A stretch of DNA of 30,529 bases from a virus, in the IMG/VR virus record IMGVR_UViG_3300037485_000830, positions 1-30,529 of that record. One strand, given 5' to 3'. A program made the position numbers and the translations under genes. The notes beneath the pieces were generated by a model. That model saw only the letters and a program-made list of their open reading frames with translations. It was not told the DNA's origin and ran no database searches. Position 1 is the first letter of the stretch, and each line of letters starts with the position of its first letter. Below, one piece after another: positions 2,743-27,951 of this stretch.

Positions 2743-4725
2743 TTACATTGCTGAATGTGTTACTTTTTTCCACCCAGTGCCATCATAAAAACATAAAGTT
2801 GCTAAAGTTGTGTTAAATACAACCATCCCTGTTGCAGGAGTTAAAGCATTTATCTCTGTTGTTGTTTTATTGCCTATTGTTACACTTGAACTAAAGGTTG
2901 CTGCTCGAGTAGCTTTAGTAATTGTTAATGCCGATACTCCTGCTGTAGAATCTCTTATTGAAAATTCACCACTTGCACCAGAAACATTACTACTTACTAA
3001 CCAAGCTTGTAGTGAAGCTCCAGTACCAGTAGTCATAACTAAACCTGCGATAGCATTACTATTATTAGCAGTTACTCTATAGTAAGTTGAGCCATTCTGA
3101 ATAGTAGTTAAATCGCCTACCATTGTCATACTTGAACCTAATGTTACTGCACCTGTAATCCTTGCCGTACCAGTTACTTGTAGTTTTTCCCCTCCGTCAG
3201 TAGTAGAGCCTATAAGGAAATTACCATTACTTTTTATCGTTGCTGCGTATGTCCCCCCAGAAAATGGATTACCACCTTGTGAAGCAGATACTATAAGGTT
3301 TAAATCGCCTCCACTAAACGCATTTGATGCAATAGCCCAATTCCTATAAGTTACTGTTGCTGTAGAATTATCTAATCTATACCCTGTATATGCACTTGAT
3401 GAATTAATAGTTAATACCGTAGATGTACCATTTAATGTTAACCCTGCAAATGTAGGAGTACTACTTGTCGCTATACTTTGTGGCAAACTCAATGTTATAG
3501 AACCTGAAGCGTTTGTAACCGTTACTTGGTTAGCTGTTCCTGTTATCGTTGCCCTTGTAAAACCTGTACCATTACCGATGTCTATTTGTCCATTTGTAGG
3601 GGTAGCCGTTAACCCTGTACCACCCGATGAAATAGCTAAAGCCGTTCCAAGTGTTACTGCTCCTGTTACCGATAGCGTTGAAATTAAAGTAGTACCACCT
3701 GTTATACTTGCAGCATTTCCACTTCCACTTGATTTAACAACAGTTAAAGCCTCTCCTGCTCCACCTTTTGTAATTGATGCAGCGACACCACTACCACTTG
3801 CGTGATTAATAACTAAATCAGAAGCCGTTAAAGAATGTGTGCCTAAATCAACATTAGTAGTAGCACCTGTATAAGGCACTGCACTAACATCTGCTGCACT
3901 TAACGTTACTATTCCTGTATATCCATTAACCGAAACTACTGCATCGGTATTATCTACTTTTTGCCAAGTCGAACCATTAAAGATAGCCCAATCTCCTAAT
4001 TCCCAAGATGTAATTCCATTTAGGTTTGTTGAACCTGCAACCGAAACTACATAGTAAAATCCTTGCGTTCCAACACTTGAGGTTAAAGTAGGTGTATTTG
4101 TAGAAGCATTCCAAGTACCTTGATACTCCACACCACCTGCTAATCCGTTTACTTGATTTTGTAACTTACCTATACCCGTTAATATTGAATCGGTAGATAG
4201 TACGGCAGAGCCACTAACAGATAAACCTGTTAATACTTTACCAACTACTGAACTATTTTTTAATGTCGGACTTGCATAGTTACCCTCTAATTCCCCACCT
4301 GCTGCGATACCCTCAATCGTAGTTAAGTAAGTACTATTATCGTAACTCAAAGTAGTTCCACTTGCCTTTACAAAGCCAGTTCCGTTGATTTGCGTTTGCT
4401 GAATTGCAGTTGCTATATCAGTTGTAATATCATAGCTTACATTATCTCCATTTGAAGCATTTACTGCTATCTCATCAAGTTTATTTACTGCTACTGCTTC
4501 AACAACTAAAACCAATGTGCTTGTTACTGCGTTGGTAATAGTATATTTTTGCCCTATAATTAATTCCGAAGCACTAATTAAAGTCTGTAATGCAGACCTT
4601 GTTAAACTTCTATTAAATACATTTTGAGCCTTTATATTAGCGAAGTCTACTGGACTTCCTGACATTAAAACATCATCTTTTTCAAGGTATGTTAGCTCTA
4701 CGGTTGGGTCGTTAAATTGTGGCAT
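2743..4725 (-). CDS. Tail fibre / receptor-binding structural protein
   Basis: A 660-residue protein rich in Ser, Thr, Gly, Ala, Asn and Val, with many short repeats such as TGAVTLG, LSVTGAV, GGTGL and GTARITGAVTLGS, typical of beta-rich trimeric phage fibres. A segment near 200-260 (EYQGTWNAS...FYYVVSVAG...WELGDWAIFNGSTWQKV) resembles the carbohydrate-binding-like modules found in such fibres. The end (MVVFNTTLATLCFYDGTGWKKV) is a common closing motif of flavobacterial phage fibres. I see no S74 chaperone domain at the C-terminus. Position after the connector genes and before the lysis genes fits a host-recognition role. Confidence 0.85.
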   Translation of the reverse strand: MPQFNDPTVELTYLEKDDVLMSGSPVDFANIKAQNVFNRSLTRSALQTLISASELIIGQKYTITNAVTSTLVLVVEAVAVNKLDEIAVNASNGDNVSYDITTDIATAIQQTQINGTGFVKASGTTLSYDNSTYLTTIEGIAAGGELEGNYASPTLKNSSVVGKVLTGLSVSGSAVLSTDSILTGIGKLQNQVNGLAGGVEYQGTWNASTNTPTLTSSVGTQGFYYVVSVAGSTNLNGITSWELGDWAIFNGSTWQKVDNTDAVVSVNGYTGIVTLSAADVSAVPYTGATTNVDLGTHSLTASDLVINHASGSGVAASITKGGAGEALTVVKSSGSGNAASITGGTTLISTLSVTGAVTLGTALAISSGGTGLTATPTNGQIDIGNGTGFTRATITGTANQVTVTNASGSITLSLPQSIATSSTPTFAGLTLNGTSTVLTINSSSAYTGYRLDNSTATVTYRNWAIASNAFSGGDLNLIVSASQGGNPFSGGTYAATIKSNGNFLIGSTTDGGEKLQVTGTARITGAVTLGSSMTMVGDLTTIQNGSTYYRVTANNSNAIAGLVMTTGTGASLQAWLVSSNVSGASGEFSIRDSTAGVSALTITKATRAATFSSSVTIGNKTTTEINALTPATGMVVFNTTLATLCFYDGTGWKKVTHSAM

Positions 4726-9279: not shown

Positions 9280-9310
9280 CAAAAATACTAATATTTTTAG
9301 CATTTTACAA
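9280..9310 (-). promoter_or_regulatory. Late-type promoter S2 with palindrome in the spacer
   Basis: On the minus strand TTG (9308-9310) is followed after 20 bases by TATTTTTG (9280-9287). The spacer ends with TGCTAAAAATATTAG (9288-9302), a variant of the palindrome shared with four other structural promoters. It lies 15 bases upstream of the protease ATG. Confidence 0.75.
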
Positions 9311-9320
9311 AATTATCTTT

Positions 9321-14353: not shown

Positions 14354-14384
14354 CAAAAATACTAAAAATTTTAGCAATATTCAA
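14354..14384 (-). promoter_or_regulatory. Late-type promoter S3 with palindrome in the spacer
   Basis: On the minus strand TTG (14382-14384), 20 bases, then TATTTTTG (14354-14361). The spacer contains TGCTAAAATTTTTAG (14362-14376), identical to that of S4. It drives the tail tube gene with a leader of about 30 bases. Its -33 box is only 4 bases from that of the divergent HNH promoter. Confidence 0.78.
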
Positions 14385-14388
14385 AGTA

Positions 14389-14419
14389 TTGTTTAAATTG
14401 GCTTTTATTCGTATATTTG
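14389..14419 (+). promoter_or_regulatory. Consensus Bacteroidetes promoter for the HNH gene
   Basis: On the plus strand TTG (14389-14391) is followed after 20 bases by TATATTTG (14412-14419). It is the only clear plus-strand promoter with a gene downstream, and it leaves a leader of about 95 bases before the HNH ATG. Confidence 0.82.
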
Positions 14420-14437
14420 TAGAAATAAATATGTATT

Positions 14438-14510
14438 CTTGCAGGTAGATATTTATTATAATTAAGGTAACACTTAATAGTCCCCCTTTATCTGCAAGTA
14501 TTGGGGGATT
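14438..14510 (+). ncRNA. Putative pseudoknotted leader of the HNH gene
   Basis: In order along the leader: CTTGCAG (14438-14444); a hairpin ATTAAG/CTTAAT (14461-14466 with 14473-14478, 6-base loop); TCCCCC (14481-14486); CTGCAAG (14492-14498); GGGGGA (14503-14508). The first and fourth elements pair (7 bp) and the third and fifth pair (6 bp), and these pairings cross, giving an H-type pseudoknot that ends about 10 bases before the ATG. Function is unknown; translational control of the endonuclease is an inference. Confidence 0.5.
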
Positions 14511-14518
14511 TGTATTTT

Positions 14519-14995
14519 ATGGAAATTTGGAAGTTAATTAAAGAGTATAATGGATTATACTATGTATCTAATTTAGGTAATATTAAAAATGCAAAGGGTA
14601 GATTAATGAAACAAGGTATATGTGTTAATGGGTATAAAAAAATAAATTTAAATTCTAATACCTCCTATAAGACTTATAGAACTCATAGATTAGTAGCACA
14701 AGCATTTATCCAAAATGATGATAATTTAGCTTATGTAAATCATATAAATGGCATTAAGACTGATAATAGAGTAGAAAATTTAGAATGGTGTACTCCAAGC
14801 TATAATATTAAACACGCTTTTGGTATTGGATTAAAAGTAGGTTTAAAGGGGGATAAACACGGGAAATCTAAAATATCAAATGAATTAGCACAAGAGATAA
14901 TGAATACTAATTTAAGGGTTTCTGAACTTGTTAAGATATATCCATTGAGTTATACCCAATTAGCAAGGATAAAAAAGGGATTGAGAAATTGTTAA
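14519..14995 (+). CDS. HNH homing endonuclease (NUMOD4-HNH)
   Basis: The only plus-strand gene. From ATG 14519 the product has 158 residues. A NUMOD4 module (EIWKLIKEYNGLYYVSNLGNIKN) covers about 1-45. The HNH nuclease covers about 50-105, with H56 and the NHINGIKTDNRVENLEWC core (N74, H75, N83, N87). A C-terminal helix-turn-helix-like region follows (ISNELAQEIMNT...LSYTQLARIKKG). The frame extends to a TTG at 14501, but that lies in the leader structure. Its stop overlaps that of the convergent tail terminator gene. Confidence 0.92.
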   Translation: MEIWKLIKEYNGLYYVSNLGNIKNAKGRLMKQGICVNGYKKINLNSNTSYKTYRTHRLVAQAFIQNDDNLAYVNHINGIKTDNRVENLEWCTPSYNIKHAFGIGLKVGLKGDKHGKSKISNELAQEIMNTNLRVSELVKIYPLSYTQLARIKKGLRNC

Positions 14996-18039: not shown

Positions 18040-18070
18040 CAAAAATACTAAAACTTTTAGCAATAAACAA
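18040..18070 (-). promoter_or_regulatory. Late-type promoter S5 with palindrome in the spacer
   Basis: On the minus strand TTG (18068-18070), 20 bases, then TATTTTTG (18040-18047). The spacer contains TGCTAAAAGTTTTAG (18048-18062), which shares its centre with S1. It separates terminase from portal transcription. Confidence 0.78.
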
Positions 18071-18071
18071 A

Positions 18072-26919: not shown

Positions 26920-27603
26920 CTAGGAGATTAACCCTATTTTACTACCCAAACAAATCATTGGTTTATTAAGGTGTAATGAATAGTTAGTATTGTTATTATC
27001 AAAAAATTGTGTATAAATTATAGTTCTAAAAATTAACTTTAATTCACTCCACCTAGATAATAGTTTACTTGCTAATCCTTGTGAAATATTTAATAACTTA
27101 CATAGGTGTTTTTGCCCAGTAACAATATAATTTTCTCCTAGTACACGTTGCTTACTTTTTTTAAATAGGTCATATTCTTTTTTAGTGAATTTACCTTTCA
27201 TCTCCGTTTCTTCTGTTACTAGTTTTCTTAATTCTTTTATTGTTTCTGACTGCTTACCTTTGAAAAGTTGTTGATTAAAATTTACCCTTGCTATTGCATA
27301 AAGGTTTTTTTCTACCAATTCGGCAAAATTACCCTCTTTAAATAGCTTTATATGTTTTATGTGTTTTATTGTATCTATTGATTCTAGTATAGTTTTATAC
27401 TTAACTACTTTGAAACCACCTTTAGTTTTAACAATAAGCCCATTATTAAGCCCATAGTTGATTTGTTTTCTAGTGATGTAGTCAGTTACTCCAAGTTTTT
27501 TTGATACTTGATTTAAAGAGCCTAAAATTATCGAATTACGATATTTACTTTTCGCTATAATAGCAAAGCATAAAAATTGCACTTGTGATAATCCTTTAGT
27601 CAT
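26920..27603 (-). CDS. Winged-helix-like DNA-binding protein, possible replication or transcription regulator
   Basis: From ATG 27603 the product has 227 residues. The N-terminal 70 residues contain a helix-turn-helix with wing-like strands (SLNQVSKKLGVTDYITRKQINYGLNNGLIVKTKGGFKVVKY). A second one is likely near 165-200 (KHLCKLLNISQGLASKLLSRWSELKLI). The middle is basic and helical. An upstream ATG (27630) lies in the loop-proximal arm of a leader hairpin and is less likely. The gene stands behind a strong promoter and a two-hairpin leader, suggesting tight control, as for a replication initiator or regulator. The role is inferred. Confidence 0.65.
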   Translation of the reverse strand: MTKGLSQVQFLCFAIIAKSKYRNSIILGSLNQVSKKLGVTDYITRKQINYGLNNGLIVKTKGGFKVVKYKTILESIDTIKHIKHIKLFKEGNFAELVEKNLYAIARVNFNQQLFKGKQSETIKELRKLVTEETEMKGKFTKKEYDLFKKSKQRVLGENYIVTGQKHLCKLLNISQGLASKLLSRWSELKLIFRTIIYTQFFDNNNTNYSLHLNKPMICLGSKIGLIS

Positions 27604-27616
27604 TGGTATTAAATAG

Positions 27617-27655
27617 AAAAAGCCCTGCATATTTGGAGACTTGGCAAGGCTTTTT
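27617..27655 (-). terminator. Terminator-like hairpin II of the kissing leader
   Basis: On the minus strand AAAAAGCCTTGC (from 27655) pairs with GCAGGGCTTTTT (to 27617), 12 bp including one U-G pair, with a 15-base loop, followed by CTATTT. The wobble is a C-A mismatch on the plus strand, so the minus transcript is the better folder. It lies just before ATG 27603 and could end a short leader RNA or allow read-through. Confidence 0.65.
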
Positions 27656-27717
27656 ATTAAAATCTATTTAATTGTTTGGTAATGTATCTATAAGTCTCCA
27701 CACAATAAATACATTAC
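27617..27717 (-). ncRNA. Two-hairpin leader with complementary (kissing) loops
   Basis: Hairpin I (27709-27717 with 27679-27687, 9 bp, 21-base loop) is followed on the minus strand by hairpin II (27644-27655 with 27617-27628, 12 bp, 15-base loop). Loop I carries TGGAGACTT (27692-27700 read in reverse) and loop II carries AAGTCTCCA (27634-27642 read in reverse), a perfect 9-base complement. The promoter at 27727-27756 would start the transcript almost exactly at hairpin I. This can be a leader switch or a short regulatory RNA of about 100 nt. Confidence 0.6.
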
Positions 27718-27726
27718 TAATTGGTA

Positions 27727-27756
27727 CAAAATTAACTATTTAATTCCACTTATCAA
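27727..27756 (-). promoter_or_regulatory. Consensus promoter of the kissing-hairpin leader
   Basis: On the minus strand TTTG, 19 bases, then TAATTTTG (27727-27734); the TTG is at 27754-27756. It matches the TTG/TAnnTTTG pattern fully. The expected start lies just before the first arm of hairpin I. Confidence 0.8.
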
Positions 27757-27951
27757 AATTTATTTTTTATTGAAATTTAAATACATTTTTCATTTATGTT
27801 GCAATAAATAGGCGCATCGTGAGTAAAGTGGGTGCAATGTTGCATTTTTGCAACAATTTAAACTATATGCAATTACTCGTATCTTGGTAAATTTGTATAG
27901 ATTCCGATATTTATTCCGATAATTTAAAGCTATTACTTTAAGTTAGTTAGC
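27757..27951. other. Non-coding, repeat-containing stretch; possible origin or control region
   Basis: No gene is visible in these 195 bases. They hold a hairpin TGTTGC/GCAACA (27838-27843 with 27850-27855), several TTGCA/TGCAA copies between 27799 and 27872, and a 12-bp direct repeat with ATTCCGATA at 27901-27909 and 27913-27921. The stretch is AT-rich and next to a winged-helix gene. An origin of replication is a reasonable guess, with no direct proof. Confidence 0.3.

Follow-up and report, generated by a model that had tools for sequence, protein, structure and literature searches.

In many phages of Flavobacterium-type bacteria, early genes are preceded by a predicted leader RNA of about 110 nt in which the loop of the first hairpin can pair, or "kiss", with that of the terminator hairpin; as the pairing letters vary between phages yet always match, they point to a widespread RNA control device. 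The window, i.e., the whole stretch of DNA analysed, is the 30,529-nt IMG/VR virus record IMGVR_UViG_3300037485_000830, whose main genes lie on the minus strand and whose large terminase is Flavobacterium-phage-like (52% identity to phage 11b).

Anatomy of the Window Leader

On the minus strand, the leader is laid out as a promoter, hairpin I, a spacer, hairpin II, and a U run, followed by ATG 27603. Its features are the following:

27727–27757, minus strand: promoter of the Bacteroidota type, with TTTG (27757–27754), a 19-nt spacer, and TAATTTTG (27734–27727)
27679–27717, minus strand: hairpin I (5' hairpin), 13 bp (27717–27705 with 27691–27679) and a 13-nt loop
27692–27700, minus strand: kiss strand I, TGGAGACTT, in the loop of hairpin I, identified by loop complement and covariation
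27656–27678, minus strand: A/T-rich spacer between the hairpins, containing ATTAAATAG
27617–27655, minus strand: hairpin II, terminator-like, 12 bp (27655–27644 with 27628–27617) including one G-U pair, a 15-nt loop, and a 3' U run
27634–27642, minus strand: kiss strand II, AAGTCTCCA, in the loop of hairpin II, identified by loop complement and covariation
26920–27603, minus strand: gene of a 227-aa protein behind the leader, true start ATG 27603

The sequence-only reading of this DNA had proposed two hairpins with a perfect 9-base loop complement, and this was borne out: TGGAGACTT (27700–27692) and AAGTCTCCA (27642–27634) are perfect 9-nt complements, occurring once within the 30.5 kb (0.14 expected by chance). 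As neither kiss strand recurs in the window, no other phage target is expected within that sequence. Also correct were the remarks that the sole mismatch on the plus strand becomes a G-U pair in the minus RNA and that hairpin II is terminator-like and stands beside the start codon; the hairpin is located wholly inside the leader, with the gene beginning at ATG 27603. The ORF caller had placed the start at ATG 27630, inside hairpin II, a choice ruled out by the homologue at locus L002, which begins at the ATG equivalent to 27603.

The minus transcript folds at −34 kcal/mol, against −16.0 ± 2.8 kcal/mol for shuffled sequences (z = −6.4, with 0 of 200 shuffles as stable), and the plus-strand fold is weaker (z = −2.8). 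A plus-strand origin of the RNA is thus out, given this weaker fold, the C-A mismatch that it would contain, and a promoter and U run that fit the minus strand. The outer stem of hairpin II shows compensated changes among relatives. A terminator scan limited to short loops did not call the window terminator because its loop is 15 nt long. In the fold of the minus transcript, ATTAAATAG (27671–27663, minus strand) can also pair with CTATTTAAT (27616–27608, minus strand), located after the terminator and before the start codon, which would lengthen hairpin II with an 8-nt bulge. The copies forming this pairing are kept in L005, and an extra copy of ATTAAATAG is found in the promoter spacer (27744–27736, minus strand).

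The leader had also been said to start from a consensus promoter. A promoter is indeed present, in the Bacteroidota form TTTG-N19-TAnnTTTG (27757–27727), and not in the E. coli sigma-70 form, of which the promoter scan found none on the minus strand at the window leader. The consensus comes from Flavobacterium psychrophilum, where the −7 box TAnnTTTG lies at −12 to −5 (PMC9723704); the predicted start site is, thus, at about 27722, and a terminated RNA would measure about 110 nt. The same promoter is present in all nine relatives of the window locus. Elsewhere on the minus strand, three near-identical promoters TTTG..TTGCTAAAAnTnTTAGTATTTTTG (9280–9311, 14354–14385, and 18040–18071), each with an inverted repeat GCTAAAA/TTTTAG in its spacer and each 5' of structural genes, look like a shared late-promoter or operator set.

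The Loops Covary among Relatives

As in kissing-loop RNAs, the two hairpin loops are complementary and covary. In order to collect relatives, we anchored the search on the 81-aa ORF upstream of the leader, and not on complementarity, and obtained nine viral loci; a separate scan, made with the promoter sequence, recovered nearly the same set of contigs. Behind the 81-aa ORF, all nine loci carry the same promoter, a hairpin, and then a terminator-like hairpin with a complementary loop. Together with the window, these ten loci hold seven distinct loop pairs, all complementary:

window: TGGAGACTT/AAGTCTCCA
L005: GTGGAACTC
L006: GTGGTTCGT
L003 and L007: GTTGACAG
L004: GTAGAGAG
L008 and L009: GTCGTAAG
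L010 and L011: TGTAGGG

The mean pairing energy of these seven pairs is −13.7 kcal/mol for cognate loops against −5.8 kcal/mol for non-cognate ones, and the cognate assignment ranks best among all 5040 permutations. The window and L005 have nearly identical leaders, yet their 9-nt kiss differs, and the partner strand has changed to match, with compensated one-base indels among the changes when the sequences are read side by side. In all seven types, the kiss strands lie within the loops only, and the terminator stem is never used. The covariation check suggested with the sequence-only reading has, thus, been run, and the independent loop variation that would have spoken against a kissing-loop leader was not seen, as these seven pairs and the nine sequences of a second family described below covary; at the level of sequence, a kissing-loop leader with a terminator beside the start codon is supported. 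One has to keep in mind that single-sequence folding of L002 and L007 (z = −0.7) is misleading, as the kiss is a pseudoknot and, therefore, invisible to ordinary folding. BLAST of the window leader against isolated phages gave no match.

Promoter spacer and hairpins recombine independently: L003 combines the window promoter with the L007 hairpins, and L005 is the reverse. The junction between the promoter and hairpin I is, thus, a recombination point, where relatives have reshuffled the promoter spacer and the RNA with its downstream module.

A Second Family and a General Class of Leaders

We scanned the collection for the stem-loop frame AAACGAAGTNNNNAGCGTTT, whose core is 4 nt, and recovered, besides the window family, a second one of reversed order, where the terminator hairpin holds the motif and the 5' hairpin holds its complement CTNNNNAC. 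Two compact loop frames, AAGTNNNNAG and CTNNNNAC, recur in swapped positions, as expected of a kissing geometry. Among the nine aligned sequences of this second family, kiss cells are 100% paired and five of the eight kiss pairs have changed on both sides; the covariation score is 0.512 against 0.192 for shuffled alignments (reached by 0 of 500 shuffles) and at most 0.153 for slid controls, and counts made on segments cut by hand in four homologous groups agree with it. In most members, the kiss is constant and the stems vary. A strict genome-wide pattern for this family gave no match.

A general descriptor (TAnnTTTG, a 5' hairpin, and a loop-complementary terminator) returned 25 distinct elements at a score of at least 22, against 1.5 per shuffled set, and 13 elements at a score of at least 27, against 0.0. 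The extended list of loci holds 38 matches at a score of at least 20 in 1.46 Mb, of which we judged about 32 to be true. Separately, 13 of 23 terminator-type leaders of NUMOD4/HNH genes have an upstream complement of at least 7 nt to the terminator loop; when only the 5' part was shuffled, the figure was 0.8, with a maximum of 2 in 40 runs. Overall, such leaders number several dozen in Bacteroidota phages, and shuffled DNA gives close to none. In a table of 42 elements assembled by hand, mean pairing energy is −12.9 kcal/mol for cognate and −3.8 kcal/mol for non-cognate partners, and the cognate partner outranks every other one in 33 of the 42 rows, these values being descriptive only since most of the elements were found by complementarity.

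Four further leaders with kisses of 7–12 nt (L156, L173, L195, and L153) have no TAnnTTTG box, and the first three seem to have TTGACA/TATAAT-like promoters; the leader class may reach beyond Bacteroidota phages.

Genes Downstream of the Leaders

The start codon usually lies 7–20 nt 3' of the terminator hairpin, and farther in some replication leaders. Behind the elements, we found HNH and GIY-YIG homing endonucleases, SF2 helicases, DUF1376/DUF4373-like replication proteins (organisers), VirE-like proteins, a DNA methylase, and the winged-helix gene of the window, with gene identities read from the first residues and not by family search. The expectation that the element belongs to the winged-helix gene did not hold, as relatives carry it before other genes or, in three of the ten window-family loci (L004, L010, and L011), with no ORF closely behind. 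At two of these, several hundred non-coding bases follow the element (L010 at about 590–740 and L004 at about 3660–3810); in L010, CAGTACAGAT and ATCTGTACT could pair, and these stretches are possibly another structured RNA, with no Rfam match.

The 227-aa protein of the window is 41–44% identical to relatives behind the same element. Its structure model shows one winged helix with confidence, at the N terminus, and a second one with low confidence, and there is a weak MarR_2 match. A search for relatives with this protein found a single locus among viral contigs and none among 84,980 genomes. As a fold search returned only general winged-helix proteins, none at E ≤ 0.001, to call it a replication initiator would be a guess.

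Several phages carry two or three elements with a different kiss in each. The window itself holds a second one:

14412–14521, plus strand: second element, starting with TATATTTG (14412), hairpin I with CTTGCAG (14438)
14481–14508, plus strand: its terminator, TCCCCC...GGGGGA, loop CTGCAAG (14492)
14519–14995, plus strand: HNH homing endonuclease gene, from its ATG at 14519

Leaders in Cultured Flavobacterium Phages

Flavobacterium phage 11b has one element, at 33,628. With the leader of an HNH-type endonuclease as query, 34 records matched among Baltic Flavobacterium phages, with hosts LMO6 and LMO9, and the kiss is GTCGTCG/CGACGAC in all three records fetched. A second leader of these phages has matches in 46 records and, in the records read, its kiss is GTGGAACG in mumin6-1, GTGAGACG in hattifnatt9-1, and GTGAGAAG in morran9-1. 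Between the mumin and hattifnatt leaders, 12 of the 131 positions are changed, and four of these 12 make up two compensated double changes in the kiss; their downstream modules differ as well (a helicase against a primase). The Baltic muminphages carrying the element were reported without lysogeny genes (PMC7077304), so that a role in lysogenic immunity is not needed. Small annotated ORFs overlap the RNA element at L052 3625–3768 (morran9-1 gp042) and L271 79–174 (snusmum9-1 gp041); both are probably annotation artefacts.

How the Leader May Act

Our preferred reading, to which we give slightly less than an even chance, is that of a cis-acting attenuator leader. RNA polymerase would start at the leader's own promoter and hairpin I would be made at once; about 60 nt later, hairpin II would form as an intrinsic terminator whose end shortly precedes the start codon. 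Its apical loop would then pair with the loop of hairpin I through 7–9 bp, loop to loop and with both stems kept, docking the 5' end of the RNA on the terminator and helping this terminator to form and persist. By default, a compact RNA of about 110 nt would result, and the early gene behind the leader would be expressed only from read-through, when docking fails or is competed away. The layout, the terminator and promoter sequences, the covariation, and the recurrence before early genes are seen in the sequences; transcription, termination, the direction of the kiss effect, and the signal that relieves it are inferred. As the kiss lies in the terminator loop and leaves the stem unused, kiss and terminator are compatible, and these are not classical mutually exclusive hairpins. 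The terminator stems, for their part, look strong enough without the kiss, which might, therefore, do something else.

The same anatomy and covariation would be found if hairpin I caught the emerging terminator loop and hindered closure of the stem, a cis-acting antiterminator in which the kiss turns the gene on and whatever occupies hairpin I turns it off. Kiss strand II should, by our estimate, exit the polymerase at about the time the U run is transcribed. However, the kiss never overlaps the terminator stem, unlike in classical antiterminators, and loops of 10–15 nt leave room for the kiss with both stems closed, so we consider this unlikely.

A trans-acting RNA of identity or dosage is a touch less likely again. 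As phage copy number rises, terminated leaders would build up and kiss those of their own type on other genomes, resulting in feedback and in exclusion of same-type phages, while different types would ignore each other. Such a role has precedents in the P4 CI RNA (PMC4825925) and in plasmid incompatibility RNAs (PMC10724649), and would suit kisses that differ between phages, between the elements of one phage, and, as seen with the second leader of the Baltic phages, at one locus between phages sharing two hosts; it would also suit the fall of 4 of the 12 mumin–hattifnatt changes in the 16 kiss bases (Fisher p = 0.04). Cis pairing should, however, outcompete trans pairing, and the constant kiss and varying stems of most second-family members show that fast kiss turnover is not general. 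Moreover, in the 42-element table, kisses are no more orthogonal within a genome than between genomes, which gives no support to selection against cross-talk, and the kiss type travels with the downstream module, so the differences may reflect linkage only. An extension that we hold to be improbable would make the leaders a widespread phage class whose kiss is an exchangeable identity code for each replication or homing module; same-type leaders would silence each other in trans and phages would diversify the code to escape exclusion, forming an RNA-only incompatibility system of lytic phages.

More improbable still is a stand-alone small RNA gene with its target elsewhere (in the host), the kiss serving only as a fold-stabilising tertiary contact and the place before genes reflecting insertion with mobile cassettes: the element has its own promoter and terminator, is linked to mobile endonuclease cassettes, and has no close ORF at three loci, where this account fits as well, but start codons cluster 7–20 nt past the hairpin and no unpaired target-like stretch is conserved across the families.

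Two other candidates were set aside. A DNA-level role (replication origin or attachment site) is not supported, since the kiss compensation, together with promoter and terminator, points to RNA; a Type III toxin–antitoxin RNA of the ToxI type was rejected, the RNA having no repeats and no constant toxin gene downstream.

Significance and Novelty

We seem to be dealing with a common RNA control element that has gone unannotated, placed ahead of early, replication, and homing endonuclease genes in phages that infect a major bacterial phylum; little is known about how the phages of this phylum control their genes. It comes with a simple, testable rule (when one loop is altered, changing the other should restore function), and the cultured phage–host pairs offer natural allele pairs with two compensated double changes. 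Action of the kiss in trans, if real, would represent a new form of phage–phage exclusion.

The claim that no element with such a layout had been described held: no Rfam family matches at its curated threshold, the best sub-threshold matches being unrelated and at chance level (E 0.14–0.68), and a search of open-licence papers only, which is weak evidence of absence, found none on kissing loops with terminators in such phages. Kissing loops and attenuators are already known; the arrangement, its spread, and the exchangeable kiss appear to be new.

Comparison with Known Systems

In satellite phage P4, the replication genes are held back by premature transcription termination involving the CI RNA (PMC4825925). 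Our leaders resemble this c4-type RNA in having complementary stretches on one same strand. The P4 CI RNA, however, is released by processing and pairs with seqA and seqC, both located outside it, whereas our leaders contain the two partners within a single RNA of about 110 nt, one in the loop of the 5' hairpin and the other in the loop of the terminator; the cultured carriers were reported without lysogeny genes (PMC7077304). The leader has no match to the C4 family of Rfam at the gathering score.

In the repZ leader of IncI-alpha plasmids (ColIb-P9) and the repA leaders of IncB and IncL/M (see the references in PMC10724649), a 5' hairpin loop pairs with a hairpin near the start of the replication gene. 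Formation of this pseudoknot activates translation, and an antisense RNA from the opposite strand competes with it. The likeness is a 5' hairpin loop pairing beside a start codon, with the difference that the partner here is a terminator loop. On the opposite (plus) strand over the window element, no promoter of the TAnnTTTG type was found, and a weak sigma-70-like match is at chance level.

As in attenuators, an intrinsic terminator hairpin with a U run lies between promoter and start codon, a leader organisation shared with trp and pT181-type systems. Those use mutually exclusive hairpins, whereas the extra pairing here is loop to loop and compatible with the terminator: none of the seven window-family types has an antiterminator hairpin using terminator-stem bases. 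Nor is there a conserved leader peptide, the only ATG before the terminator (27713, MYLLCGDL) being ACG in L005.

Finally, stem-loops upstream of the T4-type homing endonuclease genes I-TevI, mobE, and segB are thought to limit expression (PMC3014915), and our leaders likewise place an RNA structure just before phage homing endonuclease genes. In T4, the hairpins conceal the ribosome site and contain a late promoter; in our leaders, a terminator with a U run takes the place of such a hairpin, lies downstream of the promoter, and is kissed by a second hairpin.
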